The position numbers and the translations under genes were made by a program. The notes beneath the pieces were generated by a model that had not been told where the DNA came from, made no database searches, and saw nothing but the letters and a program-made list of their open reading frames with translations. A DNA stretch of 34,369 nucleotides. It comes from Niabella sp. GTDB lineage: Bacteria; Bacteroidota; Bacteroidia; Chitinophagales; Chitinophagaceae. Location of the stretch: contig JAPUDO010000125.1 in assembly GCA_027493055.1 (NCBI GenBank), positions 1-34,369 on the forward strand. Reading direction: 5' to 3'. Of the stretch, positions 4,125 through 21,794 are shown piece after piece (position 1 is the stretch's first letter; each line of letters starts with the position of its first letter).

Positions 4125-5606
4125 ATGAAAGAGACGATAGAAACCGATATAGCCCTTATTGGAGGTGGGATCATGAGCGCCACCCTGGGCATGCTCATCA
4201 ACCAGTTAGCTCCCGGTAAAACCATACATATTTTTGAAAGATTAAATTATGTGGCAGGAGAAAGCTCTGACGCATGGAATAATGCCGGCACCGGGCATGC
4301 CGCCTTATGCGAGCTGAATTATACACCTGAAGACGAAAACGGTGTGGTGCATATTGATAAGGCACGTGCCATTATGGAGCAGTTTGAAGTGTCCAAGCAA
4401 TTCTGGGCCTATCTTATTGAACAGGAAAAACTCGGTAATCCTGAAGATTTCATCCGCTCCACACCTCACATGAGCTTTGTACGGGGCGAGAAAGATGTGG
4501 AATATCTCAGGAAAAGATACGCTGCATTGCAGCAGAGCATCCTCTTTCAGAACATGCAATATTCCGAAGACCCGGAAGTTATTAAACAATGGACGCCTTT
4601 AATTATTAACGGCCGTGATGCCACTGAAAAAATTGCCGCTACACACTCTGTTTTAGGAACCGATGTAAATTTTGGTGCTATCACCGGGGCTCTTATCAAA
4701 GCGCTTCAAAAGTCGGGGCAGGCAACACTGCACCTGCATCATGAAGTTAGAAAGCTGAACCAGCAACCCGATAAGCGCTGGGAAATAAGAGTGAAAGACC
4801 TGAGTTCCGGTAAAAAATATAATGTGCTGGCAAAATTTGTATTCATTGGTGCGGGTGGTGGCTCGCTGGAGCTGTTACAAAAAGCCGATGTGCCTGAAGG
4901 GAAAAAATACGGAGGCTTCCCTGTAGGTGGCCAATGGCTGGTTTGTAAAAATCCCGAAGTAAGCAGCAGGCACCAGGCAAAAGTGTACGGGCAGGCCGAA
5001 GTAGGTGCCCCGCCCATGAGTGTGCCGCACCTGGATGCCCGTATTATTGATGGTGAAAAAGCCATTCTATTTGGGCCCTTTGCCAGCTTCTCTACTAAAT
5101 TTTTAAAAGAGGGCTCTTACTGGGATCTGTTTGGAACCGTTAAGTACTGGAATATTTTCCCGCTTATAAAAGTGGGCATTAAAAATATAGATCTTGAAAA
5201 ATACCTGATCCGCCAGCTAAGCCTTTCTTTTGAGGACAGGATGAATGTTTTGAAACAGTTTTATCCTGATGCAAACCCTGCCGACTGGAAACTGCAGGAA
5301 GCCGGGCAGCGCGTGCAGGTGATCCATAATGATCCCGACAGCGGTCCTACGTTACAGTTCGGTACAGAAATAGTAACTGCTGCCGATGGCACTATTTCAG
5401 CACTTCTTGGCGCATCACCCGGTGCTTCTACCGCAGTGTCTATCATGCTGAGGCTATTGTATCAATGCTTCCCCGACAGGGCCGAAGCCAATATGCAGCG
5501 ACTCCTGGCCATGATACCTTCCTACGGCCGGAATCTCGAAGAGCATCCTGAACTGCTGGCCGAAGTAAGAACGCGCACCAGCCGTATATTGGAATTGCAG
5601 GCTTAG
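4125..5606 (+). CDS. mqo: malate:quinone oxidoreductase
   Basis: A 493-residue FAD-dependent malate:quinone oxidoreductase, a peripheral inner-membrane enzyme that oxidises malate to oxaloacetate and passes electrons to quinone, bypassing NAD-dependent malate dehydrogenase. The dinucleotide-binding motif IALIGGGIMSATLG is at residues 9-22. Family landmarks include 'ERLNYVAGESSDAWNNAGTG', 'GAGGGSLELLQ', 'GGFPVGGQWL' and the C-terminal 'LLGASPGASTAVSIML'. The frame stays open 37 codons upstream, but that stretch is not Mqo-like and begins inside the -7 element, so I chose ATG 4125. The length fits the roughly 500-residue family. It is monocistronic, with a clear terminator behind it. Confidence 0.93.
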   Translation: MKETIETDIALIGGGIMSATLGMLINQLAPGKTIHIFERLNYVAGESSDAWNNAGTGHAALCELNYTPEDENGVVHIDKARAIMEQFEVSKQFWAYLIEQEKLGNPEDFIRSTPHMSFVRGEKDVEYLRKRYAALQQSILFQNMQYSEDPEVIKQWTPLIINGRDATEKIAATHSVLGTDVNFGAITGALIKALQKSGQATLHLHHEVRKLNQQPDKRWEIRVKDLSSGKKYNVLAKFVFIGAGGGSLELLQKADVPEGKKYGGFPVGGQWLVCKNPEVSSRHQAKVYGQAEVGAPPMSVPHLDARIIDGEKAILFGPFASFSTKFLKEGSYWDLFGTVKYWNIFPLIKVGIKNIDLEKYLIRQLSLSFEDRMNVLKQFYPDANPADWKLQEAGQRVQVIHNDPDSGPTLQFGTEIVTAADGTISALLGASPGASTAVSIMLRLLYQCFPDRAEANMQRLLAMIPSYGRNLEEHPELLAEVRTRTSRILELQA

Positions 5607-5670
5607 TATTTATCCGCAGTTAAAGCTCAGCATGGCTGTTCGTCATTTAGCGAATCCTTAGCTTATTGTA

Positions 5671-5697
5671 AAGCCTGTCAGTGTGCAGGCTTTTTTA
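5671..5697 (+). terminator. Rho-independent terminator after mqo
   Basis: A 7-bp stem (AAGCCTG with CAGGCTT), an 8-base loop and a T-rich tail lie 65 bases past the mqo stop. From here to 5906 the DNA is AT-rich and holds no recognisable gene or promoter match. Confidence 0.8.
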
Positions 5698-5906
5698 TTG
5701 CATCTAATATCCCAATTAAAGGGGTACAGGCAAAAGGTTATTGTTCATCTTATTAAGTTGTACGCTGCCTACGATATACTCTTAACTCCAAATGCGGAAG
5801 TACACAATTAAGAAAAACTCTTTTAACAGGTTAGCTTTAACAACAATTTTAAAAAATAAAACATACTGTTGCCCTATGAAAAAAACTATAAAACCGCTGG
5901 TACGAA

Positions 5907-6689
5907 GTGGACAAAACATTGTACAGCCAGTTAGCAACAATTAATACTTACCTCATAATGAAAGACAAAATATTAAAAGACATCCGGTATTACGAAAGTG
6001 ACAAACCCAACATTGAAGGGCTAAGCATGCCCGGCAGTTTAGGAAGAATTTTTACGCCAACAAAAGAAACAAATTATATCGGGCAGAGAATAGCAAGGAA
6101 ACTTAATGAATTGAAATATTCATTAGGTGCGTGCGACCATGTTTATATCAACCTGACGACAGTTTTAAATGAAGGTCAAATTGAGGCCTCAAACAGAAAT
6201 ATTAACAAAGCTATTAAATATATTGATTTTGGCGTCAATCAGTCCAAATTTAATGCGCTGACAGACGAACAAAAAAATGACTTTCTGCAATCTTCAACCA
6301 TAGATATTTTTCGGACCATCAGCAATGACAATAACCTGATGCCCGTAAATGAAACAGCCAGGCAATTTTTGCTGTTTGGCACCGAAATGACCATTCACTA
6401 CAAAACAAAAGAAACACAATCATACCATATTGATATCTATTACCAGATTGCACCAAAGAACAGTTACACAAAAGCCATAGTTGAATATCAGGATAAGAAA
6501 ATAAATGCCCGCTACAGAACAACCTTCAGGTTACAATTCTATGACGACATATACCCCCTGGTTGACACAATAACCGTAAAGGATGATACAATAATTCTTA
6601 ATCCGAAAAAATCATTTAGAGCAGACTTATATAATGAAAGATACAAAACACCCATTGAATTAAAATTTAGCAGCTTTGAAAAATTTTAA
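5907..6689 (+). CDS. unrecognised 260-aa protein
   Basis: I do not recognise this protein. It is 260 residues, soluble-looking, with no signal peptide, membrane helix or cysteine-rich part. The first 160 residues look helical and charged ('YYESDKPNIEGLSMPGSLGR', 'NRNINKAIKYIDFG'). The last 100 look beta-rich with alternating aromatic and polar residues ('HIDIYYQIAPKNSYTKA', 'RYRTTFRLQFYDD'). Codon use is AT-richer than in mqo or dnaE, which fits horizontal acquisition. The start may instead be Met18 (5958), since residues 1-17 precede a cleaner start (MKDKILKDIR). It stands alone between a terminator and a 410-base gap. Confidence 0.6.
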   Translation: MDKTLYSQLATINTYLIMKDKILKDIRYYESDKPNIEGLSMPGSLGRIFTPTKETNYIGQRIARKLNELKYSLGACDHVYINLTTVLNEGQIEASNRNINKAIKYIDFGVNQSKFNALTDEQKNDFLQSSTIDIFRTISNDNNLMPVNETARQFLLFGTEMTIHYKTKETQSYHIDIYYQIAPKNSYTKAIVEYQDKKINARYRTTFRLQFYDDIYPLVDTITVKDDTIILNPKKSFRADLYNERYKTPIELKFSSFEKF

Positions 6690-7099
6690 ATTTTAAATGC
6701 CGACATTGTATTACATATTATGTAGGTAAATCCCTGACCCGGCAGAAATAATCCTGTCTCAGCTTCAGCTATCTATCATCTGCAGTCCCGGCAGGAAATT
6801 ATAAATTGGACTATAAGGTAAACGTATCGGATTTTGAATACTTCGATGTGTTAATGTCACTCCTTACGGAGTTTTATAGCAAGCCTACTTTTATTTTTAT
6901 CATCCTGTCAGCCCTTCGCGCTTATTGGCCCGGTCATTTTTTAAATCTGCCGTGGCAGATGGTATTATATGTCTGAATGGGTAACTTTCGTCCTGAATTT
7001 AAAATGCGTTTGCCCTGACATAACTTATAGATAATACTAATGTAAAATTTTATTATCTTTAAACAGTAAAACCTTTGATTAACAACTAAAGCAACCTAT
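6690..7099 (+). other. 410-base gap without a recognisable gene
   Basis: No credible reading frame was found. AAATTTT is tandemly repeated twice across the preceding stop codon (6681-6694). A small hairpin with arms ATCTGC and GCAGAT lies at 6945-6960. A near-match to the -7 element (TATCTTTA, 7054-7061) lies 38 bases before the HRDC gene. Confidence 0.5.
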
Positions 7100-7558
7100 A
7101 TGAAAGTAAAACACTTCCCCATCAGGCTGAATGAGGAAAACAGCCAACAAGACGAAAGAACGCTAAACTTTTTTATGCAAAGCGTTTCAGTTAAGAAAAC
7201 CGCAGCACAACACATTACATCAGAACAGGCCGGTTATTGGTCAGTACTGGTTTTTTATGAAGAGCTTGCGAATATGGAAGCGCAGCTTCCCCCTTCAACG
7301 GAAAAGCATCCGCCATTTAATCCATCAACGCTTGATGGAGAAGAGATAGATCGTTATGAAGCATTAAAAGCCTGGCGGGCAGACACGGCAGCAAAAGACA
7401 ATTTTCCCAATTACATTGTAGCGTCTAACTCGCAGCTTGGAGCAATAGCAAAACTCAATCCCTCCTCTAAAGAAGAGTTATGTGATCTGAAAGGATTCGG
7501 AGAAAAGAAAGCGGCCAAATATGGTGACGAGATCATCGCTATATTAAATTCAATCTGA
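7100..7558 (+). CDS. HRDC domain protein
   Basis: A 152-residue protein. Residues 1-80 form a conserved-looking N-terminal part ('WSVLVFYEELANMEAQLP'). Residues about 85-150 are an HRDC domain, the small helical nucleic-acid-binding module found at the end of RecQ and RNase D. Its marks are 'YEALKAWRADTAAK', 'FPNYIVASNSQLGAIAKLNP' and the helix-hairpin-like 'LCDLKGFGEKKAAKYGDEII'. No helicase or nuclease domain is attached, so it may be an adaptor or a regulator of nucleic-acid enzymes; the partner is unknown. Similar stand-alone HRDC proteins are known to me from other Bacteroidota. It is monocistronic. Confidence 0.82.
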   Translation: MKVKHFPIRLNEENSQQDERTLNFFMQSVSVKKTAAQHITSEQAGYWSVLVFYEELANMEAQLPPSTEKHPPFNPSTLDGEEIDRYEALKAWRADTAAKDNFPNYIVASNSQLGAIAKLNPSSKEELCDLKGFGEKKAAKYGDEIIAILNSI

Positions 7559-7725
7559 CCTGATAATGCAACGGAGACAATCCCCGTAAACAATTGCACC
7601 AGGAATTTATCTGATATAGCTCACAATTTAATCTATCCGCGACAGAGACTTGCCGGAATACCAGGAACTGTCAAAACCTATATATCGAACTTGTTAAAAT
7701 GTTCAAAAATGATCGTAAAAGTGAA

Positions 7726-7926
7726 TGTCAGGCTGAGCCTGACGAAGCCGACTCACGGGAAACACATCCTTCGTCAAGCTGTTAATAACACGTAGTTTAA
7801 GTAAATGAAAATCAATGTCGTCCTGTTCCGATAGCCCCGATAGCTATCGGGGGAAGATGAGGGACATTTTGTTTGAAAGATACGGTTCGTCTCCGAAGGA
7901 GTCCTTAGGACAGGCTCACCGTGACA
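7726..7926. repeat. composite inverted-repeat element of about 200 bp
   Basis: Two 18-base arms in inverted orientation (7726-7743 and 7909-7926) match at about 15 of 18 positions. The left arm is itself a hairpin (GTCAGGC with GCCTGAC), and a 7-bp pair (GACGAAG 7741-7747, CTTCGTC 7769-7775) follows it. Near the centre is a perfect 18-base palindrome, CCCCGATAGCTATCGGGG (7835-7852). The whole sits in the 514-base gap 7559-8072, which has no credible gene. Motifs of this kind recur between genes in many Bacteroidota; a non-autonomous mobile element is my inference. Confidence 0.55.
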
Positions 7927-8072
7927 GGGATTTTATCATTTGCTTTGTCATTCTAATAAACTTAAATGCAATGCTTTTATTTGTGCTCAGGACGACATTT
8001 TTCTTTCAAAAAACTCAATAATAAAAACTTAAACAGCTTATCCTATAAGCCCATTAATTGAGATCAATAACA

Positions 8073-8759
8073 CTATTTCCTGTAATGTCTGAAAATGCCA
8101 TCTTTCAGCAAAGTCCATATTGCCGCTTTCTGGTGTGCGGCCTTTAATGCGCCGTTTGCCCAGGTATTGCAGGTGCGGAATAAGTTGTAAGAGCCCTTTG
8201 CTTCGTAAAAAGCATCCATATCGCCATAACCATCATTCACGCTCGGTATATGGATAGCGCTCCCGCTGGCATCAAGATCAAAGCTATTGACAATATAGCC
8301 GATAAGGGCCTTGTAATCTTCCTTGCTAATGTTTAAAGCTACGGTGGAAAAATCTGCTGCCATGTGCTTATAAAAAGTGGCATGCATGGCTGAGCTGCTC
8401 AACCCCGTCATTGCTTTGAAGGCCACTGAAAATTTCAAATCGGCCCAGGTGGGTGTTTGCAGGTAAAAGCCTTTATCACCCCAGCCTATACCCACATAGG
8501 CATAGCTGGTATCCTTCAGGTCGGTATCTGCATACTTTACATACCGGTCCCAGTTCATCCATTCGCTTTTTACAGGCATCACGATGTCTGTATGAACACC
8601 GTTTGTTGTTATATAAACAGTAATATCATTGGGCGATTGATAGTTCTTGTTTTTATTTACTGCTATACGAGGGATTAACAAGCCTGCTGCTACATAAACA
8701 GCAAATACGCCAATAATGTAAAGTAATATTTTACCGGTCCGTTTTAACGCCTTTTTCAT
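8073..8759 (-). CDS. TIGR02117/DUF2459 family membrane-anchored protein
   Basis: A 228-residue protein with one N-terminal membrane helix (about 10-31) and a periplasmic domain of the TIGR02117 (DUF2459) family, named for genes near urease clusters in other bacteria. Landmarks are 'ITTNGVHTDIVMPV' with a conserved His, 'YVGIGWGDKGFYLQTPTWAD', 'MHATFY' and 'FRTCNTWANGALKAA' near the C-terminus. The ordered His and Cys in 'GVHTD' and 'CNTW' recall an NlpC/LRAT-like cysteine peptidase arrangement, but that is inference. No urease genes are nearby. It is read towards the 7.5-8.0 kb repeat region and is probably monocistronic. Confidence 0.82.
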   Translation of the reverse strand: MKKALKRTGKILLYIIGVFAVYVAAGLLIPRIAVNKNKNYQSPNDITVYITTNGVHTDIVMPVKSEWMNWDRYVKYADTDLKDTSYAYVGIGWGDKGFYLQTPTWADLKFSVAFKAMTGLSSSAMHATFYKHMAADFSTVALNISKEDYKALIGYIVNSFDLDASGSAIHIPSVNDGYGDMDAFYEAKGSYNLFRTCNTWANGALKAAHQKAAIWTLLKDGIFRHYRK

Positions 8760-8860
8760 TTACTATGGTTTTCAAACCCGGTAAAAGTAGATAATTGTTG
8801 AAATACCTAAACGATGCAGATATCGTTGTTGCAGGCGCAACGAGGCCGGCCTCATCAATA

Positions 8861-9430
8861 TCACGGGTTTACTTTGCTCAATAGCTCAACGATCTCCTTT
8901 TGCGTGCTTAAAGATTTATCCGCATTATAATAGTTCTGGATCGCTGTTTTGATCTCTTCAAAGTCGGCTTTACGTTCAGCCAGCTCCAGGTACATCTCCT
9001 GCCCTTCTTTGGGACGCGGTCCCCAATGAAACAGGTCTTTGTCATGCTCATCGCGCACTATTAAAATGGGAATGGATTTACTGCCATTGGTCAGATAGCT
9101 GTCTATCTCAGAGCCACTGTCACGAAGCTGAAGCGTGAACGAAATTTTATCGTTCAGCGTGCTCATCAAATAAATAATGGGAACAATATGTGCCGCATCG
9201 CCACACCAGGGTTCGGTAATCACTACCCAGTGCTGGGGTTTATCAATACGCTTTATTAAAGCTGCCGTTTCTTCTGTTACAGGATTAGTTTTGATCCAGC
9301 GCCTCATCCGTGTCTCATTCATTTTGGCATAATGATGATAATCCGGATTATCATAAGGAGGCTGAGGGGTATCAGCAATTAATAACTCATGCGTATAGTC
9401 CAGGTATTCGTTCCAGTTCATTGTTTTCAT
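8861..9430 (-). CDS. thioredoxin-fold protein with a single active-site cysteine
   Basis: A 189-residue protein of the thioredoxin-9 type (PF14595-like). The core strand 'HWVVITEPWCGDAAHIVP' places a WCGDA motif where thioredoxins have CxxC, so only the first cysteine remains and it cannot act as a normal dithiol oxidoreductase. 'SIPILIVRD' supplies the cis-proline region and 'FHWGPRP' is typical of the family. I chose the ATG at 9430; 15 further codons upstream are open but give a short hydrophobic stretch unlike the family. A second ATG at 9421 is equally possible. It lies 200 bases past dnaE on the same strand, separated by repeats. Confidence 0.75.
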   Translation of the reverse strand: MKTMNWNEYLDYTHELLIADTPQPPYDNPDYHHYAKMNETRMRRWIKTNPVTEETAALIKRIDKPQHWVVITEPWCGDAAHIVPIIYLMSTLNDKISFTLQLRDSGSEIDSYLTNGSKSIPILIVRDEHDKDLFHWGPRPKEGQEMYLELAERKADFEEIKTAIQNYYNADKSLSTQKEIVELLSKVNP

Positions 9431-9504
9431 GCAAAAGATAACAAGATATAAAATAAAAAGTTGTATTGGATGCAATGATTGGCTTTATTCGTCTATAAAT
9501 GTTC

Positions 9505-9553
9505 ATCGCCCGGAGGCGATAACATAAATAATGCGAGGCGAGGACGCCTCGCA
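9505..9553. repeat. two-hairpin element, copy 1
   Basis: Hairpin 1 has arms ATCGCC (9505-9510) and GGCGAT (9515-9520) with loop CGGA. After 11 bases, hairpin 2 has arms TGCGAGGCG (9532-9540) and CGCCTCGCA (9545-9553) with loop AGGA. Related pairs lie at 23745-23793 and 24670-24716. The form is REP-like; no RAYT transposase gene is in the window. Confidence 0.65.
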
Positions 9554-9596
9554 CAACGGCATTTCACTTCAATACACAATTTCCAATAATCATTTT

Positions 9597-9658
9597 ACCT
9601 CACCATTCACTACTCACTACTCACTATTCACTATTCACCACTCATCTTTCACTACTCC
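9597..9658. repeat. degenerate heptanucleotide array ending at the dnaE stop
   Basis: Nine consecutive 7-base units with consensus YAYTCAC: ACCTCAC, CATTCAC, TACTCAC twice, TATTCAC twice, CACTCAT, CTTTCAC, TACTCCC. The period is strictly seven, and the last unit runs into the dnaE stop codon. Confidence 0.85.
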
Positions 9659-12600
9659 CTAATTACATTCCACCCTGATCTTCCACTTCTCCTTATCTTT
9701 TAAAAATCCGATCAGCTCGCTATTCATTTCAAAGCCCCTGCCATTGGTCAACAATTCTACCTCTATATCCTCCTCTTCATCCCTGATAGTGAAATTGATG
9801 GCAGCTGTTCCTTTATAGCTTTTAAAGTTCTGCTGTACAAATGCTATCATATTCTCCGTTACATCTGCAGCAGGCAACTGTACACTTACCTTTTTAGTAA
9901 AGTTTTTCTTTACACTTTCTGCCAGGCAGATAGACGATATTTTAAAATCATAATCACCGTTAAAGCGTTGTTTGAAAAAGCCTGTTATATATACCGTAGC
10001 ACCCAATTGCAAAATAGCTGAATGTTTCAGGTAATCTTCGGAGAACAGCATCAGCTCCAGCTTCCCGCTATAATCTTCAATTACAAAGCTGCCAAATTTA
10101 TTACCGCTTTTAGCTACCCGGTGCTGTGCATCGCTTACAAGGCCCATTATTTTAAACGTAACATTGGCATTCACTCTTTCCGGGTCCTCTTTAAACCCGT
10201 TCACATACCCGATCCTTGAAATACCATAGTTTTCCATTTCAAAACGATAGTCATCCAGTGGGTGACCGCTGATAAAGATGCCGGTTACTTCTTTTTCATT
10301 ATCCAGCTGCACTACCAAAGGCCAGGGCAAACAATCCGGTATTTTCGGGGGCTGCACTTCCATGCTTTCGCTAAGGTTTCCAAAAAGCGTGTTGGCGCTG
10401 TTTTGTGCCTGTGCCTGGCAAACCTGCCCATACTTAATAATTTTTTCCAGCCCGTTCATGGTATCATTAGGGGCTGTGTGGAAATACTGGGCGCGATGCA
10501 GATCTGTAAAGCAATCAAAGGCGCCGGCATAGGCCAGGCTTTCCATTGTTTTTTTATTCACCGTACGCTGATTCACCCGCTTCACCAGTTCAAAGATCGT
10601 AGTATAAGCGCCGCCCTTCTCTCTTTCCGCGATAATGCTTTCCACCGCTGCTTCTCCCACTCCTTTCAGTCCGCCTAAACCAAAACGGATCTCCCCTCTC
10701 TTATTTACGGCAAAACCTTTCAGAGACTCGTTAATATCAGGCCCCAGCACCGGCAGGTTCATGCGCTTACATTCTTCCATAAAGAAAGTGATCTTTTCCA
10801 GCGAGCCGGCGTTATTCAATACCGCCGCCATGTACTCGCTCGGATAATGCGCCTTTAAATAGGCTGTCTGATAAGCTACGAACGCATAGCAGGTAGAGTG
10901 TGATTTATTGAACGCGTATTGCGCAAAAGCTTCCCAGTCTGTCCATATCTTTTCCAGCTTATCAGCAGGATGACCTTTCTCTACTGCGCCTTCAATAAAC
11001 TGCTTTTTCATTTTGTCCAGTACGGACTTTTGCTTTTTACCCATCGCCTTACGCAGCACATCCGCATCCCCCTTACTAAATCCGCCCAAGCTCTGGCTCA
11101 GCAGCATCACCTGCTCCTGGTACACGGTAATACCATAAGTTTCGGCCAGGTACTCCTCCATTTCAGGTAAGTCGTAAGCAATCTCTTCATGCCCGTGTTT
11201 ACGCTTGATAAAGTTGGGAATGTACTGTAATGGCCCCGGCCGATATAGCGCGTTCATAGCTATCAGGTCTGCAAACTTATCCGGCTTCAGGTCGCGCAGG
11301 TGTTTTTGCATACCCGGACTTTCAAACTGGAACGTACCGTTGGTCTCTCCTTTCTGGTATAGCTGGTAGGTTAGCTCATCATCCAGCGGTATAGTATCTA
11401 TATCGATGTCCTTACCATAGTTCAGCTTAATAAGCTGCAAGGCATTTTTAATAATCGTCAGCGTTTTCAGCCCCAGGAAGTCCATCTTAATTACGCCGGC
11501 TTCCTCAATCACGCTTCCTTCTATCTGCGTTACCCACAAGTCAGAGTCTTTGGCAGTGCTTACAGGAAGCAGTTCCGTGAGGTCTTTAGGTGCAATGATA
11601 ATACCCGCAGCATGGATACCGGTATTCCGGACTGACCCTTCCAATATCTCCGCTTCATGCAGCACTTTAGCCCTCAGGTCATCACCATTATATATTTCGC
11701 GGATCTTCTTCACATTTTCAAGGTCTTCCGCAACCAGCCCTTCTTTTTCAATCAGCGATTTTTCCCCTTCTTTCGGCTGTAAAGGCGCATGCAGCACCCG
11801 TTTTAAGGATATGCCCGGTTTTTCCGGCACCAGCTTGGCTAAAGCATTTGATTCGGGCAGCGGCAGGTCCATTACCCGCGCCACATCCTTAATGCTCATT
11901 TTAGCAGCCATTGTACCATAAGTAATAATCTGTGCCACCTGGCTCTTACCATATTTCTGCACCACGTAATCAATCACTTTCTGCCGGCCTTCATCATCAA
12001 AATCCGTATCAATATCCGGCATGGATTTACGGTCGGGGTTCAGGAAACGCTCAAACAGCAAGTTGTACTTGATGGGATCTATATTGGTAATGCCGATACA
12101 GTAGGCCACTACCGATCCCGCTGCAGAACCACGCCCGGGCCCGATAAATACGCCCGTGTCTCTCCCAGCTTTAATAAAATCACTTACAATAAGGAAGTAA
12201 CCCGCAAAGCCCATGGTTTTGATGGTAAACAGCTCAAAATCTATGCGCTCTTTCACATCCCCTTCAAAGGCATCACCGTAACGTTCCCTGGCGCCTTCAT
12301 AAGTAAGATGCTTCAGGAATTCCCACTGGTTCAGCGAATCGGCGCTCATAGTGTCTCCCTTCTCTGTTTTCTGATCCGCTGTATGGGTTTTATATTCATC
12401 CGGAATAGGAAAGTTAGGCAGCAGGATGCTGCGCTTTAAGTCGAGCAGCTCTATTTTATCAACAATAGCGTTGGTATTATCAATAGCTTCAGGGAGGTCA
12501 TGAAACAGTTTTGTCATTTCCTCCGTGGTCTTAAAATAAAACTGGTCGTTGGCAAAGGCAAAGCGCATATTCTTCATGTTCACATCATCATCGGCAAAAT

Positions 12601-14591: not shown

Positions 14592-14990
14592 TTAAACGGC
14601 CGCTTTATTCACCAGGTTGTTCTTTACAATATTCAAAAAGCTAACCAGGTTCCCGTTCTTTTCTACCACCCTGTCAAATTCGGTAATGGCCTGAAGTGAT
14701 AGCATCAGCAGCTCATTCTTTTTATCCAGCTCTTTTTTTAACAGCCTGATGATCTCTGTATATACTGCACTTTTTTCCTGCTGAAAATAGCCCTCCTTAT
14801 ATTCAAAAAGCTCATTGGGAGAAATGTCAAAAGCGCTGCAAATATCCGGCACCAAAGCTGCATCTATTTTTGAACGGCCCGACTCCATCATGCTATAAGC
14901 GTTCTGGCTTTTATTTAATATTGAGGCCATCTGGAATTGGGATATTCCCCGGGACTTGCGTAGTTGTTTTAGTGTTTGATGAATGGTCAT
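14592..14990 (-). CDS. XRE-family helix-turn-helix regulator
   Basis: A 132-residue DNA-binding protein. Residues 5-60 are an XRE/Cro-type helix-turn-helix ('LRKSRGISQFQMASILNKSQ', 'YSMMESGRSKIDAALVPDI'). Residues 65-130 are a charged, probably coiled-coil dimerisation or sensing tail ('IIRLLKKELDKKNELLMLSL'). It is divergent from the bacteriocin-like peptide genes, the usual position for the regulator of such a locus, so I infer that it controls them and itself. A good -7 element lies 28 bases before its start. The target sequence is not evident. Confidence 0.85.
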   Translation of the reverse strand: MTIHQTLKQLRKSRGISQFQMASILNKSQNAYSMMESGRSKIDAALVPDICSAFDISPNELFEYKEGYFQQEKSAVYTEIIRLLKKELDKKNELLMLSLQAITEFDRVVEKNGNLVSFLNIVKNNLVNKAAV

Positions 14991-15018
14991 AAGTTTAGCA
15001 TTATATTATATATAGAAA

Positions 15019-15026
15019 CAAATTTA
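15019..15026 (-). promoter_or_regulatory. -7 promoter element of the XRE regulator gene
   Basis: The minus strand reads TAAATTTG, an exact TAnnTTTG match, 28 bases upstream of the start codon, in a very AT-rich stretch where chance matches are more likely. The rest of 14991-15270 probably holds the promoter of the peptide genes, but I could not place it. Confidence 0.45.
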
Positions 15027-15270
15027 TATAAATAATTGATATAATTATACGGATTTTGGGTTGTTTTATTACTTTTTGTTAAATAATTTTACGGTGCAAG
15101 GATCTGGTAATTCCTGGGCCGTTGTTAATAACCTGAAGTTTACCAGCTTTGAATGATCAACACCAACCAGGATTGGCGGACGCGCCATGAGGGAAGAAAA
15201 ACACTGTATGCCCTGTGCCTGCAAAGCACACAAGACGAGATTTTGAAAAACACTTTAAAAATTAAAACTT

Positions 15271-15474
15271 ATGAAACAATTAATGGATTTAAACAAAATG
15301 GGGTTGACTGAAATGTCAACTTTTGAATTGCTTGACATTGAAGGTAGTAAAATGCCTTCCTGGGCAAAAAAAATAGGTATTGCCGGAGTATTGACTTGGA
15401 TTGCAGACAACTGGACCGATATAAAAAGCGGAGCCGCAAGCGGATGGGAGGACTACGAAAAACAACATCGCTAA
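15271..15474 (+). CDS. bacteriocin-like precursor peptide 1 (double-glycine-type leader)
   Basis: A 67-residue precursor. The N-terminal 26 residues resemble a C39-peptidase leader: 'LTEMSTFELLDIEGS' aligns residue by residue with the leader of the next peptide, and Gly-Ser replaces Gly-Gly at the cut site. Cleavage would release a 41-residue peptide that begins KMPSW, has an amphipathic stretch 'IGIAGVLTWIADNW' and a GxxxG motif (GAASG), and ends in a charged tail. GxxxG and tryptophans are typical of two-peptide (class IIb) bacteriocins. A C39 exporter lies downstream in the same island. The killing role is inferred; a signalling peptide is the alternative. Confidence 0.72.
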   Translation: MKQLMDLNKMGLTEMSTFELLDIEGSKMPSWAKKIGIAGVLTWIADNWTDIKSGAASGWEDYEKQHR

Positions 15475-15499
15475 TTTTTTAACACAAAAACTAAAAGTC

Positions 15500-15697
15500 A
15501 TGAATCCTTGTATAGAACTTACCGAATTAACCAAAGAAGAGCTAATAGAAATTGACGGTGGTAAAACTCCTTCTAGGGATACATCTTTGGCGAACGATAT
15601 TGCTTATTGTTTTGTCTACGGAGGGCGCGCTATTTGGGATAGCTTCGGAGCTTTTATTGATGGAGCAAGTAAAAGTAAAGATATTTTTTACAAATAA
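15500..15697 (+). CDS. bacteriocin-like precursor peptide 2 (double-glycine leader)
   Basis: A 65-residue precursor, 25 bases after peptide 1. The leader 'IELTELTKEELIEIDGG' is a textbook double-glycine leader, with cleavage after Gly21. The 44-residue product starts KTPS, like KMPS in peptide 1, and has a glycine-rich amphipathic centre ('VYGGRAIWDSFGAFIDGAS') with one cysteine and a basic end. The shared leader, similar mature starts and adjacency suggest a two-component pair. A very strong hairpin terminator follows 11 bases after the stop. Confidence 0.78.
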   Translation: MNPCIELTELTKEELIEIDGGKTPSRDTSLANDIAYCFVYGGRAIWDSFGAFIDGASKSKDIFYK

Positions 15698-15708
15698 ACC
15701 AATACTTC

Positions 15709-15747
15709 CACAATGTGCTAAAAGGGTTTTAGCACATTGTGTTTTTT
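15709..15747 (+). terminator. 15-bp perfect hairpin terminator between the peptides and the CPBP gene
   Basis: Perfect 15-bp arms (15709-15723 and 15727-15741), loop GGG, then six T. This is the strongest terminator in the window, and the next start codon comes two bases after the T run, so downstream genes need read-through or a promoter inside the hairpin. Confidence 0.92.
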
Positions 15748-15749
15748 GA

Positions 15750-16235
15750 ATGATGATTCTTTTCAAACCAGTATATACGAAGTTCATTTTTGCAGTTGTT
15801 GTATTTAATTTTTTACTTGCAATAATTATAGCTTTTTTATCAAACCTGTTTTTTGCCGGTGTTTTATCTGAAAATACTATTACCTGGGATTCGACAGCAG
15901 AAGAATTTGTAGTTGTTGTTTTGATAGGCCCGGTTATGGAAACACTCTTCTTCCAGGTAGCCTCTTACAGTTTTTTTTCGTATGTAATCAAAGGCGTTAA
16001 ACTTGGCAGTAGAAGCAAAAGAACACTATTCATTTTAAGCAGCAGCCTGCTATTTGCGGCCTTTCACCAATACAACTGGCTGTATTGCATCAGTGCTTTT
16101 TTGGGTGGGCTTTCGTTGAACTATAGTTATCTCTATTTTAAAAAACAGAGGTTCTTCCCGTTTCTTTCCGTTGTAATTATACACTCGCTATATAATCTGC
16201 TTGTTTTTATCGTCAAAAATTTATTTGCAGAATAA
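15750..16235 (+). CDS. CPBP family intramembrane protein, probable bacteriocin immunity
   Basis: A 161-residue membrane protein with about four hydrophobic helices and the CPBP (CAAX protease/bacteriocin-processing, Abi) motifs. Motif 1 is a variant: 'GPVMETLFFQ', with Glu64 kept, Thr for the second Glu and Gln for the Arg of EExxxR. Motif 2 is 'FAAFH' (Phe102, His106). Motif 3 is 'HSLYN' (His145, Asn149). CPBP proteins next to class II bacteriocin genes act as self-immunity proteins in Gram-positive bacteria, and the position here fits. The altered motif 1 may alter or abolish proteolysis. The next gene starts 44 bases on. Confidence 0.8.
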   Translation: MMILFKPVYTKFIFAVVVFNFLLAIIIAFLSNLFFAGVLSENTITWDSTAEEFVVVVLIGPVMETLFFQVASYSFFSYVIKGVKLGSRSKRTLFILSSSLLFAAFHQYNWLYCISAFLGGLSLNYSYLYFKKQRFFPFLSVVIIHSLYNLLVFIVKNLFAE

Positions 16236-16279
16236 ATATATCCCCGGCTTAAAAATAAAGGGTTTAAGTTTAATTACTA

Positions 16280-17437
16280 ATGCCTCATAACAACTCTCTT
16301 TTCTTGTCCCCACAAAAACGAAGCACATCCGCTATTTACCGGCTTTTACTCTTGTTGGTAGTGGCTGCCCTGTCTGCCCTGCCCTTTATCGCCACCACTA
16401 TTTCCACCCGTGCCTCCGGCATCACCCGCCCTGCTACAGAGCGTACCGAAATAAGGCCGGTGCTTACAGGCATTGTGGACAAAGTCTTATACAAAGAAGG
16501 GCAGGCCGTACAGGAAGGGGCGGTTATAGCTATTATAAGAGATGATGTATCATCGGCGCAGGAGGCAAGTAATCAATACGATATCAACCAGAGACAGCAG
16601 TTTGTACACGATTTAAAGATGCTAACCTCCCCTTCCTTCGGAGAGGGGCGGGGGGAGGCTCTGCAAAGCCCCCTATACAGGCAACAGCTCAACCGCTTTC
16701 AATACCAGTTGGCCGATCATCAGGCTTCGCTTAAAAAAGTACAGCATGAAGTAGACATGAATAATGCGCTTTTAAAAGCTAAAGTAATAGCCCCTAAAGA
16801 AGCTTTCGACAAACAGGTTGAGCATGAAAAGCTGCAGGCTGCTTATGAGGCTTTCAGGCGCAACCAGGTAGCCCAGTGGCAACAGGAACTGGTAAACTAT
16901 GAGGCAGAATTGTCGCAACTAAATGCTGCCCGCTCTAAAATACATGCAGATAAAAAGAACTATGAAATAAAAGCGCCTGTATGCGGCATTCTACAGGGCA
17001 TAAACAATTTGTATCCGGGCAATGTAGTGCAGGCCGGGCAGTCTATTGCTACACTTTCACCCCAAAGCGACCTCATTGCAGAATGCTATGTGCATACAAG
17101 AGACGTTGGCCTGTTGCGTACCGGCCAGCCAACACGGTTCCAGGTAGACGCTTTCGATTATAATTATTTCGGCATCCTTACAGGAAAAGTGATCAGTATA
17201 GATAACGACTTTACAATGGCAGACAACAATCCTGTATTTAAAGTACGCTGCAGTTTCGACACTACACAATTGCATCTGAAAAACGGTTTTACCGGACAGC
17301 TAAAGAAAGGGCTTACCCTGCAGGCACGGTTTATTATTGGTGAGCGTACGTTGTGGCAATTGCTATGGGATAATATAGACGACTGGCTGAATCCCGCAGC
17401 GCCAGGAAAGTCTTCCACTGATGATAGTGCTGATTAA
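16280..17437 (+). CDS. HlyD-family membrane fusion protein for peptide export
   Basis: A 385-residue periplasmic adaptor of the HlyD type, linking an inner-membrane exporter to a TolC channel. It has one N-terminal membrane helix (about 20-42), a first half-lipoyl strand set ('PVLTGIVDKVLYKEGQAVQEGAVIAII'), a long coiled-coil hairpin (about 140-225, 'EVDMNNALLKAKVIAPKEAF'), the second lipoyl half ('KAPVCGILQGINNLYPGNVV') and a beta-barrel. It lacks the strong C-terminal domain of RND adaptors, which fits a partner of the C39 ABC exporter downstream. A GC-rich palindrome is inserted in frame at about residues 114-127. Its expected neighbour, the exporter, is displaced by an antiparallel gene pair. 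Confidence 0.86.
   Translation: MPHNNSLFLSPQKRSTSAIYRLLLLLVVAALSALPFIATTISTRASGITRPATERTEIRPVLTGIVDKVLYKEGQAVQEGAVIAIIRDDVSSAQEASNQYDINQRQQFVHDLKMLTSPSFGEGRGEALQSPLYRQQLNRFQYQLADHQASLKKVQHEVDMNNALLKAKVIAPKEAFDKQVEHEKLQAAYEAFRRNQVAQWQQELVNYEAELSQLNAARSKIHADKKNYEIKAPVCGILQGINNLYPGNVVQAGQSIATLSPQSDLIAECYVHTRDVGLLRTGQPTRFQVDAFDYNYFGILTGKVISIDNDFTMADNNPVFKVRCSFDTTQLHLKNGFTGQLKKGLTLQARFIIGERTLWQLLWDNIDDWLNPAAPGKSSTDDSAD
16621..16660 (+). repeat. GC-rich palindromic element inside the HlyD coding sequence
   Basis: Outer arms CCTCCCC (16626-16632) and GGGGAGG (16652-16658). An inner hairpin CCCCTTCC/GAGAGGGG closes on a TTCG tetraloop (16637-16640). It is translated in frame as 'TSPSFGEGRGEA'. I recall very similar palindromes between and inside genes of other Bacteroidota. 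Confidence 0.7.
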
Positions 17438-17523
17438 AACATAACACTAATAACAGATGATATCAGCGAAAACCTGCACCATTCACAGGACAGAATAGTA
17501 GATTGTTCACCAACAAAAATAAA

Positions 17524-17862
17524 TCAGATGATAACCTGTATTTCAGATGGCCATAAAACCAATAGCCGATGGCTGAGGAGTAGCTGCTCAATATCAGGAG
17601 CTAATTTTAAAAAAGTATCGAAAAGTACCTGGTTGTTGCAGTTACCTAAACGAAATAAAACGATTTTGGGAATTGTATTCAATTGCAATGCCCTGTAATA
17701 AAAATCCTTATCGCGTGTAAGAATAACATAGTCATTTTTTAAGGCTATGTCCCAAACTTCATTATCCGGCAAACTGGCAGAATAATCATGCACAAAAACA
17801 AAACGAAATGAATGTAACTCTGAAAAATTTTTTGGCAGGTTTACGTCAACAAAATAAGTCAT
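17524..17862 (-). CDS. DUF5615 PIN-like protein, probable toxin
   Basis: A 112-residue protein of the DUF5615/Mut7-C-like PIN-related group, paired in many genomes with DUF433. The N-terminal 'FVDVNLPKNF' corresponds to the family's DENLP, with Asp retained and Val for Glu. 'NDYVILTRDKDFYYRAL' holds the conserved second acidic motif, and 'PKIVLFRLGNCNNQ' the third. These acidic residues would form a metal site for RNA cleavage if it acts as a PIN-type nuclease, which is inference. Its ATG overlaps the stop of the DUF433 gene by 4 bases. The pair runs against the surrounding export genes. Confidence 0.78.
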   Translation of the reverse strand: MTYFVDVNLPKNFSELHSFRFVFVHDYSASLPDNEVWDIALKNDYVILTRDKDFYYRALQLNTIPKIVLFRLGNCNNQVLFDTFLKLAPDIEQLLLSHRLLVLWPSEIQVII

Positions 17863-18104
17863 GCAGAATGGAGTAAAACATTACTGGATACAGGTGTCAG
17901 GTCAGACAGCCTTGCGGCATACAAAAGGCAGGCCTGCAAGTCTTCTTTTTCCAAAAAAGGAAAGGCCTTTAGAATATCATCGGTACTATCCCCTCCCGAA
18001 AGGTGTTCCAATATCATACTAACCGTAATACGCAAGCCCCTGATGGTGGGTTTACCACCACAAATACCAGGAACAATTGTAATTCTATTTAATAATTCAT
18101 CCAT
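17859..18104 (-). CDS. DUF433 protein, probable antitoxin
   Basis: An 81-residue DUF433 protein, a small winged-helix-like family found as the antitoxin or regulator partner of DUF5615. The core 'RITIVPGICGGKPTIRGLRI' followed by 'ILEHLSGGDSTDDILKAFPF' is diagnostic. The frame is open 20 codons further upstream, but the family begins at MDELLNRITI, so I placed the start at 18104. This leaves 19 bases to the divergent exporter start at 18124. Likely autoregulated through that gap, which would also touch the exporter's promoter. Confidence 0.82.
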   Translation of the reverse strand: MDELLNRITIVPGICGGKPTIRGLRITVSMILEHLSGGDSTDDILKAFPFLEKEDLQACLLYAARLSDLTPVSSNVLLHSA

Positions 18105-18123
18105 ACAAACTATATTTTCATCA

Positions 18124-20289
18124 GTGAAGTTACGAAAAGAGCTTAAAATCAAACAAAGAGACATAACTGATTGCGGCGCGGCCTGCCTGGCTTCTATTGC
18201 AGCCTTTTATAAACTAAAGCTACCTGTAAGCCGCATACGCCAATATGCAGGTACTGATAAGCGCGGCACTAACGTGCTGGGACTTATAGAAGCCGCTGAA
18301 AAGCTGGGGTTCCAGGCTAAAGGAGCTAAAGGTTCCTTTGAGAGCCTGTTCAAAATACCATTACCAGCCATTACACATCTGGTATTAAAAAACGGGATGC
18401 ATCATTATGTGGTTATTTACAAAGCCACAAAAAAGCATATCGGAATTATGGACCCCGCTGATGGACGGGTTCAGAAGAAAACGCATGATGAATTTAAAGA
18501 AATATGGAGCGGAGTGATTATATTAATGATGCCTTATGAAAGCTTTGCAACTGGAAATGAAAAAACATCCAATATAAAAAGGTTCTGGGAACTAATAAAG
18601 CCTCATAGAGTTATAATGATGCAAGCCTTAGCCGGAGCAATTGTTTACACCATCCTGGGACTTTCTACTTCCATCTATATACAAAAAATTATTGATTTTG
18701 TATTAGTGGAGGGTAATACAAGATTACTTAATCTGCTCAGTGTGGCTATGATTGTAATACTTATTTTCCAGTTGCTGATTGGCTATTATAAATCACTTTT
18801 TGCATTACAAACAGGTCAAAACATAGATGCAAGGCTTATATTGGGTTACTACAAGCACCTGCTGAAATTACCACAGCGTTTTTTTGATACCATGCGCGTT
18901 GGTGAAATTATCAGCCGGGTAAATGATGCCGTTAAAATAAGATTATTTATAAACGATATAGCATTAAGCATCATTGTAAATGTATTGACACTGCTATTCT
19001 CAATAGCACTGATGTTCTTATACTACTGGAGACTGGCACTTGTTATACTGGCTATAATCCCCATATACGCCTTGCTCTATTTCATCAGTAATAAGATCAA
19101 TAAAAAATGGCAGCGCATGCTAATGGAAGACAGCGCCGGGCTGGAAACCCAACTGGTAGAAAGCCTGAACGCCGTTGGTACTATAAAAAGATTTGGCTTG
19201 GAGTCCTATGCTAACGATAAAACGGAGAACAGGTTTTATAAGCTGCTGCAAACAATATATAAAACAGGCGTGTACGGCCTGTACACTGGCAATGCGTCCG
19301 AATTTTTCACACGACTTTTTACCATTATCTTACTTTGGACAGGTAGTTATTTCGTTGTCAACAGGGAATTATCGCCCGGCGAGCTGCTTTCATTTTATGC
19401 GCTGACAGGATACCTTACCGGCCCTGCAGCCTCGCTTATCGGTGCCAATCGCAGCATACAGGACGCATTGATCGCATCTGACCGGCTGTTTGAGATCATT
19501 GACCTGGAAACAGAACAAAACAATGAAAGCAAAGTAACCCTCACTCCGGCCAATACAGGCAATATTAAGTTTCAAAACGTTTCTTTCCGTTACGGTACCC
19601 GCACACAGGTATTCAAAAACCTGAGTATGATAATTGAAAAAGGCAAAAGCACCGCTATAGTAGGAGAAAGTGGAAGCGGCAAGTCCACTTTAATCTCTCT
19701 GATGCAGAACCTGTACCCGTTAAGTGAAGGCAGCATTTTTATCGGCGACTATGATTTGAAATACATAAACAATAACAGCCTGAGAGAAACTATAGGCGTA
19801 GTGCCGCAACATATTGATCTTTTCGCCGGTAGTGTTATCGAAAATATTGCTATCGGAGATAGCGAGCCCGATATGCAAAAGATATTAAGCTTATCCCATT
19901 TAACGGGCGTTAATGATTTTATAGAAAAACTGCCCAATACCTATCACACCTTTATCAGTGAACAGGGAGTGAACTTTTCCGGAGGCGAAAGGCAAAGGCT
20001 GGCAATAGCCCGTGCACTGTACCGCAATCCCGGAATACTTATTTTAGATGAAGCCACCAGCAACCTGGATCCGGCCAGTGAAAATCAAATCCGCCGGGTA
20101 TTGGACTGGTATAGCAACCAGGGAAAAACCATTATTATCATAGCCCACCGGTTATCCACTATAAAAAGTTGCGATACTATTTTAGTTTTGCAGAACGGCG
20201 TTTTAGCAGAATGTGGTACTCATGAAACATTGCTGGCTGCCCAAAACGTTTATGCCCGTTTATGGCAGTATCACACAGGAAATATTTAA
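18124..20289 (+). CDS. peptidase-containing ABC exporter (C39 domain, double-glycine cutting)
   Basis: A 721-residue exporter that removes double-glycine leaders and moves the peptide across the inner membrane. The N-terminal C39 peptidase has Cys17 in 'DITDCGAACLA', His94 in 'MHHYVVIY' and Asp110 in 'MDPADG'. About six membrane helices follow (roughly 160-420). The ATPase has Walker A GESGSGKST at 514-522, signature FSGGE near 619 and Walker B ending LILDEATSNLD near 640-650. I chose the GTG at 18124: the domain begins a few residues later, and the earlier in-frame ATG at 18043 lies inside the DUF433 gene and adds a non-homologous stretch. Partners are the HlyD and TolC genes; substrates are probably the two peptides. 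Confidence 0.92.
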   Translation: MKLRKELKIKQRDITDCGAACLASIAAFYKLKLPVSRIRQYAGTDKRGTNVLGLIEAAEKLGFQAKGAKGSFESLFKIPLPAITHLVLKNGMHHYVVIYKATKKHIGIMDPADGRVQKKTHDEFKEIWSGVIILMMPYESFATGNEKTSNIKRFWELIKPHRVIMMQALAGAIVYTILGLSTSIYIQKIIDFVLVEGNTRLLNLLSVAMIVILIFQLLIGYYKSLFALQTGQNIDARLILGYYKHLLKLPQRFFDTMRVGEIISRVNDAVKIRLFINDIALSIIVNVLTLLFSIALMFLYYWRLALVILAIIPIYALLYFISNKINKKWQRMLMEDSAGLETQLVESLNAVGTIKRFGLESYANDKTENRFYKLLQTIYKTGVYGLYTGNASEFFTRLFTIILLWTGSYFVVNRELSPGELLSFYALTGYLTGPAASLIGANRSIQDALIASDRLFEIIDLETEQNNESKVTLTPANTGNIKFQNVSFRYGTRTQVFKNLSMIIEKGKSTAIVGESGSGKSTLISLMQNLYPLSEGSIFIGDYDLKYINNNSLRETIGVVPQHIDLFAGSVIENIAIGDSEPDMQKILSLSHLTGVNDFIEKLPNTYHTFISEQGVNFSGGERQRLAIARALYRNPGILILDEATSNLDPASENQIRRVLDWYSNQGKTIIIIAHRLSTIKSCDTILVLQNGVLAECGTHETLLAAQNVYARLWQYHTGNI

Positions 20290-20366
20290 ATTTTTAGGAT
20301 AGTGTATCAGAAAATGTACAAATTCTTGATTCTATTGTATTTTTACCATTAACTATTTAGTACTTT

Positions 20367-21794
20367 ATGAAAAAGGGGTTGGTTGTATTGATTATAAGCA
20401 TGTTTTCAATGGCTGTTCAGGCCCAGGAAAAATGGAACCTTAAACAGTGTGTGGATTATGCCATCTCCAATAATATATCGGTGAAGCAGGCTGATGTGCA
20501 GGCCCGTTTTGATAAGCTTACCCACCATCAAAGCACCCTGGCGCTTTACCCAAGGATCAGCAGCCAGCATAGCACGGGGTTTCAGTTTGGACGTTCTATT
20601 GACCCTACCTCCAACCAGTTTACCACCAACCAGATATTATTTGCCAACCACGGGTTGGACCTGGGGCTGGACCTGTTTAATTGGTTCAGTAAAAAAAACA
20701 CCATAAAAGCTAACGAATACCTGGCGCAGGCAAGCGTTGCCAGGCTTGAAAAAGCTAAAAATGACGTGGCGCTCAATGTAGCTAATGCCTACCTGGCAGC
20801 GCTGTTAAATAAGGAGCAGATCAATATCAGCAAAGTTCAGGTAGCGCAGAGCCGGGAACAGGTAGATTTAATCAGCAAGCAGGTAGATGCCGGCGCCCTC
20901 CCCGAACTGAATCTTGCCGAAACGCAAACACAATATGCTACTGACAGCTCCAACCTTATAACAGCGCAAACCAATTATATCCTGTCTTTACTTCAATTAA
21001 AGGCTTTGCTGAACCTTGAAGCCGATGCGCCTTTCGATATTGAAGTGCCGCCGGTAGCATCTATTCCTGTTGAGCCTTTATCAGCTTTAGATCCTGCTGT
21101 GGTTTACCAGTCTGCGCTGGAAAATCTGCCCCAGCAAAAAATAAATAACCTGAACCTGAAGGCCAGTGAAAAAAATGTGGCCATAGCCAAAGCGGGCTTA
21201 TATCCCTCCCTATCATTTTTCGGCGGTCTTAACTCCCGCTATTCCAATGCCCAGAAAAAGATTGCCAGCAGCTTTCAAACAATAGACATGCCTGTTGGAA
21301 GTGTACATATAAATGGTATCAGCTACCCGGTCATCTCGCCCGTTAACCAGCCAGCGGGATATGACAGGAATACTTATTTCAGGCAGCTGAATAATAACTT
21401 TAGCCAGAATGCAGGTATAGGGCTGAGCATCCCGATCTTTAACGGCGGAATGGCCCGTATCAACTGGCAAAAAGCAAAGCTGGATGTAGAAAACCAGCAG
21501 CTGCTGAAAGAGCAGGATACCCGTACCCTTAAACAGGATATTTACCAGGCGCATACCAATGCAGTGGCCGCTATTGAAAAATATAATGCCACCCGCATAG
21601 CGGTAGAGTCGGCACAAAAAGCCTATGACTTTGCCAGGAAGAGATTTGACGTAGGATTGCTGCAACCCATTGACCTTATATTGAATCAGAATAATTTATT
21701 CAGGGCTAAAATAAATATGGTATCGGCCCAGTACGATTATGTATTTAAAATGAAACTGCTGGAGTTTTACAAAGGGCTGGGGCTGAAGCTGTGA
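20367..21794 (+). CDS. TolC-family outer membrane efflux protein
   Basis: A 475-residue outer-membrane channel protein. It has a Sec signal peptide with cleavage after 'MAVQAQ' (about residue 20), then two repeats of the outer-membrane efflux protein domain, each rich in long helices ('DVALNVANAYLAALLNKEQI', 'YPSLSFFGGLNSRY', 'GLSIPIFNGG', 'RFDVGLLQPIDLI'). Trimers would form the trans-envelope tunnel. It follows the C39 exporter after 77 bases and so completes a type I system; it may be shared with the second adaptor downstream. Confidence 0.9.
   Translation: MKKGLVVLIISMFSMAVQAQEKWNLKQCVDYAISNNISVKQADVQARFDKLTHHQSTLALYPRISSQHSTGFQFGRSIDPTSNQFTTNQILFANHGLDLGLDLFNWFSKKNTIKANEYLAQASVARLEKAKNDVALNVANAYLAALLNKEQINISKVQVAQSREQVDLISKQVDAGALPELNLAETQTQYATDSSNLITAQTNYILSLLQLKALLNLEADAPFDIEVPPVASIPVEPLSALDPAVVYQSALENLPQQKINNLNLKASEKNVAIAKAGLYPSLSFFGGLNSRYSNAQKKIASSFQTIDMPVGSVHINGISYPVISPVNQPAGYDRNTYFRQLNNNFSQNAGIGLSIPIFNGGMARINWQKAKLDVENQQLLKEQDTRTLKQDIYQAHTNAVAAIEKYNATRIAVESAQKAYDFARKRFDVGLLQPIDLILNQNNLFRAKINMVSAQYDYVFKMKLLEFYKGLGLKL

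Follow-up and report, generated by a model that had tools for sequence, protein, structure and literature searches.

We propose that a gene cassette of Niabella sp. probably encodes a two-peptide, class-IIb-like bacteriocin together with its own immunity protein, a CPBP-family membrane protein whose first motif reads ETxxxQ. The stretch analysed, hereafter the window, is 34,369 nucleotides long and is a whole contig (JAPUDO010000125.1; C125) within a 5.75 Mb genome of 131 contigs. Between positions 15271 and 20289 it carries, in this order, two adjacent precursors with leaders of the double-glycine (GG) type, the CPBP protein, an HlyD adaptor and an ABC exporter with a C39 peptidase domain. 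An initial annotation had placed a two-peptide bacteriocin locus at 14592-21794, and every open reading frame (ORF) that it named there is present. That reading gains support from the pairing of two distinct peptide families, the linkage to CPBP, the linked exporter and a hairpin, but the limits and contents of the locus had to be redrawn. The families assigned to the named genes were correct, Pfam cut-offs being exceeded by XRE (HTH_3), CPBP (PF02517), the adaptor (HlyD_3), the exporter (Peptidase_C39 and ABC domains) and the TolC channel (OEP).

Two families of mature peptide

The precursor of peptide 1 (67 amino acids, aa; 15271..15474, plus strand) consists of a 26-aa leader ending in GS (15271-15348) and a 41-aa mature part that starts with KMPS and has the tail NWTDIKSGAASGW. 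That of peptide 2 (65 aa; 15500..15697, plus strand) consists of a 21-aa leader ending in GG (15500-15562) and a 44-aa mature part that starts with KTPS. Over the 15 residues up to the cleavage site the two leaders share seven identities (shuffle mean 2.0, P = 0.0008), so that the leader likeness, the mature lengths and the K-x-P-S starts described in the initial annotation all stand. Across 17 pairs the leader ends in GG in 33 of 34 precursors, the sole GS being that of peptide 1 in the window, and the mature peptides are 35-48 aa long. The mature part of peptide 1 has no cysteine and that of peptide 2 has one. The description of both peptides as amphipathic and glycine-rich did not survive: the maximum helical moment of peptide 1 does not exceed chance (P = 0.31), that of peptide 2 does so only weakly (P = 0.07), and glycine accounts for 4 of 41 and 4 of 44 residues, respectively.

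The GxxxG motif noted in peptide 1 is indeed there, as GAASG. It recurs in 13 of the 17 peptides 1, above chance (shuffle mean 4.8), against 6/17 for peptide 2, which is at chance (P = 0.19). AxxxA and SxxxS show no excess over chance in either peptide of the 17 pairs, and a small-xxx-small motif of some kind is expected by chance in most of these peptides. A pattern G...[GA][WY], picked after the sequences had been viewed, is found in 14 of 17 peptides 1, including that of the window (shuffles: mean 1.1, maximum 7).

Models built without leaders from nine loci picked up held-out partners in 8/8 cases for peptide 1 and 7/8 for peptide 2, and on this basis the two can be regarded as separate mature-peptide families. 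Peptide 2 scores 17.2 bits against Bacteriocin_IIc (cut-off 27.1) and 17.1 bits against TIGR03949 (cut-off 21.5); peptide 1 matches neither, not even below threshold. Because no curated class IIb model scores above its cut-off, we file the peptides as class-IIb-like, outside the curated families. A sequence search of the PDB with the peptides gave nothing better than E ≥ 0.2, and an AlphaFold model of peptide 1 (pLDDT 63, two helices in the mature part) was too weak and was left unused.

Linkage to CPBP and exporter genes in relatives

A profile of nine peptide-1 sequences, searched against 396 genomes sampled from the order, matched 18 at E ≤ 0.01, and all 18 loci were inspected. A peptide-2-type precursor adjoins peptide 1 in 14 of them; 13 pairs are clear, and that of G630 is doubtful, its peptide 2 failing to match once the leader is removed. 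Six of the 14 paired genomes contributed rows to the profile (G000, G119, G231, G348, G391, G621), and the other eight did not. The pair is accompanied by CPBP, HlyD and C39 genes in eight genomes (G000, G119, G231, G348, G391, G614, G621, G666), by HlyD and C39 with CPBP not seen in G638 and G630, and by CPBP in G555 and G108, where the exporter is absent from the stretch examined; it stands alone in G615 and G588. The order of the peptide genes is reversed in G615, G588 and G630. Of the four unpaired matches, one is a multi-peptide cluster (G626), two are XRE proteins that carry a helix at the C-terminus (G139, G645) and one is a 48-aa ORF (G261).

The exporter provides a second view of the same linkage. 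At E ≤ 1e-150, 44 of the 394 genomes sampled from the family have it, at 45 places in all; of the 10 same-genus genomes listed in this sample, 2 have it. We mapped 44 of these places (the window included, G301 left out) and added four of the five loci given by a contig scan, the distant Marinagarivorans locus (32%) being dropped; the linkage counts use the 45 of these 48 loci that have at least 2.5 kb upstream. Peptide-1-like ORFs occur in ten of the 45, and CPBP accompanies nine of these ten against one of the 35 loci without peptide 1; for peptide 2 the counts are 9/10 and 5/35. The corresponding P values, 1e-7 and 2e-5, are indicative only, as the loci share descent. The tenth peptide-1-like locus (L052) has a leaderless 43-aa ORF, and wherever peptide 1 has a GG-type leader at these loci, peptide 2 lies alongside (9/9). 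Conserved pairing with CPBP and C39 genes among relatives, proposed earlier as a check, was found, and a consistent lack of an exporter or CPBP neighbour among homologues was looked for and is not what these loci display. Among named hosts, the full set occurs in Sediminibacterium (L017), in a Sphingobacteriia metagenome-assembled genome (L018) and in N. hibiscisoli (L019), the last with frameshifts in CPBP, HlyD and C39.

Several loci show features of their own. At L089 (G348), which has both peptides and CPBP, a transposase-like gene (by eye) interrupts HlyD. In L052 and L056, paired precursors with GG leaders lie ~2-2.6 kb upstream of C39; their mature parts open with a lipobox-like LLIIGA...GC stretch and continue into an S/N/V-rich tail. 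A large group of the same exporter family (L057-L074) has HlyD and no convincing GG peptide upstream, apart from a few short regular-expression hits; a small XRE gene lies directly downstream of the exporter in 13 of these 18 loci.

The candidate immunity protein and the hairpin

The CPBP (Rce1-like) protein, the candidate immunity protein of the peptide pair, is encoded at 15750..16235 on the plus strand and has five predicted helices. It scores 36 bits against PF02517 (gathering cut-off 22.4), a family matched by 12/12 aligned CPBP proteins at E ≤ 1. In place of EExxxR, its motif 1 reads E64-T65-x3-Q69; E and T are present in 12/12 aligned proteins and Q in 11/12, with I replacing it in one. 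F102xxxH106 and H145xxxN149 are retained, all four residues in 12/12. A PDB sequence search with this protein gave no match at E ≤ 1 and Foldseek against the PDB none at E ≤ 0.001; a second look returned SpdC, and MmRce1 was not among the matches listed.

The gap between peptide 2 and CPBP contains a hairpin (15709..15741, plus strand) with a 15-bp perfect stem followed by T6. We compared the folding energy of the best 50-nucleotide stretch of this gap with 200 shuffles. Of 13 tested loci that have CPBP and the two peptides, 12 have 0/200 shuffles reaching the native fold and N. hibiscisoli has 2/200 (z from -2.7 to -5.9), and at L075, which has peptide 2 and CPBP only, 3/200 do (z -2.5); all 14 gaps thus outfold at least 197 of 200 shuffles. 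As a control, the 90 nucleotides preceding peptide 1 at these 13 loci gave a mean z of -0.3, none within the lowest 5%. This energy test supersedes a perfect-stem test that allowed neither G-U pairs nor long loops and placed the stem above the shuffle maximum in 6 of 13 gaps. The hairpin sequences differ among most loci, and a structure kept while its sequence changes suggests that the hairpin ends or attenuates the transcript; since some hairpins are without a T-run, it may alternatively affect mRNA stability. The window gives no Rfam match at the gathering score.

Boundaries of the cassette

The cassette appears to be a presence/absence unit among relatives. Alignment (blastn) of G394 with G119 shows a single gap here, in which positions 5004-10586 of the oriented G119 stretch (5.6 kb) lie opposite 55 bp in G394. 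The gap runs from ~80 bp before the first CPBP gene to 15 bp past the exporter stop and leaves XRE and TolC outside; against N. hibiscisoli, the gap measures 5.1 kb. At the corresponding site G394 has NlpC-XRE and then TolC, with no peptide genes; G022 has NlpC followed directly by TolC, and G396 has XRE, other genes (SusC/SusD-like, by eye) and then TolC, again with no peptide genes. In G189 a decayed locus upstream of TolC (L096, 5652-8666) retains a peptide of the GG type and two CPBP genes, with ~44 residues left of the exporter. The same locus has a 50-bp tandem array of 33.5 copies (6990-8666).

Two neighbours counted in by the initial annotation therefore fall outside. The XRE gene (14592..14990, minus strand) had been taken as the divergent regulator of the set; XRE of the same kind persists without peptides in G394 and G396, and a dedicated role was rejected. 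The TolC-family channel (20367..21794, plus strand) was likewise rejected as a cassette part: it is present in 17/17 same-genus genomes, the window included, with an RND-type adaptor directly behind, and remains at the cassette-free sites G022, G394 and G396.

Exporter and inserted gene pair

The HlyD-family periplasmic adaptor of the exporter (16280..17437, plus strand), assigned by family match, and the C39-peptidase ABC exporter (18043..20289, plus strand; possible starts GTG 18124 or ATG 18043) are separated in the window by a gap of ~690 bp; in most mapped relatives they overlap or lie less than ~80 bp apart. The gap accommodates two minus-strand genes (17524-18164), a DUF5615 (PIN-like) putative toxin (17524..17862, family match) and a DUF433 putative antitoxin (17859..18164, probable start 18101), the latter abutting the exporter start; the initial annotation had overlooked both. 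DUF433 with a PIN-type partner has been predicted as a toxin-antitoxin pair (PMC2701414). The mapped relatives show no such pair between HlyD and C39, and where G119 and N. hibiscisoli have an ATG in the exporter gene, the window reads TTA. Because this toxin-antitoxin-like pair sits at the exporter start, production of the peptides may be weakened in the window strain. The claim of full type I export is accordingly to be narrowed: HlyD and the C39 exporter are there, but the cassette has no outer-membrane channel, TolC being genus-wide, and the inserted pair lies at the ATG used by relatives. In the genome of the window, a single further C39 match exceeds the cut-off; it is partial and contains a stop. 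A second, broken C39 gene of this genome, at ~69078 of L016 (G000:C120), has two small ORFs with GG leaders and a thioredoxin-like gene (by eye) close by.

Peptide-1-like tails elsewhere

The NWxDIKxGxxxGW tail of peptide 1 is seen again after a hydrophobic helix in leaderless ORFs of 38-53 aa and in XRE proteins. A search with the tail gave five strong matches (E ≤ 3e-6), the next, in G231, being peptide 1 itself. A leaderless tail ORF lies between CPBP and HlyD in G119 and N. hibiscisoli and just before HlyD in G239; there is none between these genes in the window. A pure immunity family of leaderless tail copies is unsupported, as three of the five strong matches (G261, G207, G250) lie elsewhere, judging from their 1.5-kb flanks, and the tail frame of G207 has no ATG ORF. 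Leaderless single-helix ORFs of 38-48 aa with an NWxDIKxGxxxGWN-type tail were recorded at L011:11807-11920, L019:6677-6790, L052:10295-10423 and L139:7799-7942, and XRE regulators bearing a hydrophobic helix at the C-terminus and a similar tail, YTxIKxGIxx[GA]W, at L137 (5361) and L138 (6924), both of 126 aa, and at L152 (1219), of 123 aa.

Discussion

From the genes, their order and pairing, their linkage, the hairpin and the empty site, we infer a scheme of transcription, secretion, joint action, killing and immunity. The two GG-type precursors would be expressed from adjacent genes ahead of the strong hairpin, which may let only part of transcription into the CPBP, HlyD and exporter genes and so yield an excess of peptide. 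The C39 domain would cleave after GS or GG, and the HlyD-ABC pair would export both mature peptides via a housekeeping TolC-type channel. Outside, peptide 1, with its hydrophobic stretch and NWxDIKxGxxxGW tail, and peptide 2, which is aromatic and has D-I-A-Y, could jointly hit the inner membrane of related cells. It can be hypothesised that CPBP shields the producer, whether it binds the two peptides once they are inserted or works as an altered protease.

The peptides might instead be two independent single-peptide bacteriocins that share an exporter and a cluster and do not act jointly. Peptide-2-type ORFs in 5 of 35 exporter loci without peptide 1 (e.g. L085, L088, L075) fit this view, as do other single GG peptides at several loci of the same exporter family. 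We nevertheless consider it rather unlikely, since every GG-leader peptide 1 at an exporter locus has its adjoining peptide 2 and the pair is intact without a nearby exporter in G108, G555, G615 and G588. It is less probable still that the peptides drive self-lysis or within-population signalling in place of attack on others. GG-peptide islands of Neisseria gonorrhoeae are reported to work in autolysis, not in competitor killing (PMC11798529), and an XRE gene is nearby. However, XRE persists where the peptides are absent, and the linkage to CPBP also argues against such a role. As for signalling, mature lengths of 35-48 aa are long for signal peptides.

A similarly small probability is given to a CPBP protein that processes the peptides or acts as their membrane receptor and does not confer immunity. 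According to PMC9298176, bacteriocins can be processed or received by CAAX-type proteins, and SilX, which has EExxxQ, turned out to give no immunity; furthermore, CPBP is not in the examined stretch of four pairs. Yet a C39 peptidase is already available for processing, and CPBP is kept and doubled at G189, where the exporter has decayed. A bolder idea, which we hold to be quite improbable, is that peptide 1, once secreted, imitates resident membrane proteins of the single-pass type and docks on their partner, its tail resembling the one behind the membrane helix in the leaderless proteins and XRE regulators of the same bacterial family. The leaderless copies would then be decoy immunity, in a second layer beside the altered CPBP.

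For the two-peptide cassette with CPBP immunity, one line of evidence counts less than might be expected. Between the window and G119, identity is 79% for the exporter, 81% for TolC, 71% for HlyD and 63% for XRE, and falls to 54% for CPBP (49% for a second copy), 57% for peptide 2 and 48% for peptide 1. This fast divergence lends weak support to a co-change of toxin and immunity, because NlpC (56%) diverges nearly as much as the peptides and CPBP, a point that, together with a caution on Z in the second structural look at CPBP, slightly lowered our confidence in the proposal. The ratio of non-synonymous to synonymous change (dN/dS) was left unused, dS being undefined or above 0.89 in every comparison.

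A bacteriocin here is not new in kind, since class II bacteriocin genes are predicted across phyla including Bacteroidota in PMC12648078 and a paper on a Sediminibacterium genome raises bacteriocin production in a single sentence, as a suggestion (PMC9258536). In the titles and abstract openings of the literature searched, we found neither a two-peptide bacteriocin of Chitinophagaceae nor the paired mature-peptide families, the changed-motif CPBP partner, the hairpin or the presence/absence unit. Like class IIb systems of the lactococcin G, plantaricin E/F and J/K types, the cassette has two adjacent GG-leader precursors, a C39 ABC exporter with an accessory protein, an adjoining membrane-protein gene and GxxxG in one peptide. 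It differs in that no curated family cut-off is reached, export is HlyD-type in a Gram-negative, and GxxxG in peptide 2 is at chance. A survey of two-component bacteriocins reports one of GxxxG, AxxxA or SxxxS in all predicted core peptides (PMC13289728). With the CPBP/Abi immunity proteins covered by PMC9298176, the candidate shares the PF02517 match, FxxxH and HxxxN, and a gene beside the peptides, but its motif 1 is ETxxxQ in 11/12 proteins here against EExxxR there.

Among Gram-negative systems, McbABCI of Moraxella catarrhalis similarly combines HlyD-family, CvaB-like ABC, GG-peptide and immunity genes in one operon, but with one peptide and a 74-aa immunity protein described as without high similarity to other immunity proteins (PMC2761928). 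For this system killing and immunity are reported, yet culture supernatants did not kill (PMC2761928); the opposite lesson comes from the nap island of the gonococcus, where the GG peptides serve autolysis (PMC11798529). Class II microcins of the MccV type use an HlyD-type adaptor, a C39 ABC exporter and TolC together; the adaptor and the exporter are present here, and TolC is a separate genus-wide gene. Bacteroidetocins are likewise peptide toxins of Bacteroidota with a peptidase/transporter gene, but PMC6671954 describes them as class IIa-like and accompanied by a thiol oxidoreductase, and found no immunity protein for them; no oxidoreductase is present among the cassette genes of the window. 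With the conserved pair families, a CPBP whose motif 1 has changed and a decayed locus in which CPBP survives, joint action and immunity through CPBP can both be put to a direct test in a Gram-negative. If the proposal is true, a lineage of Bacteroidota would possess a peptide weapon of two components along with a dedicated immunity gene, in contrast to the bacteroidetocins.
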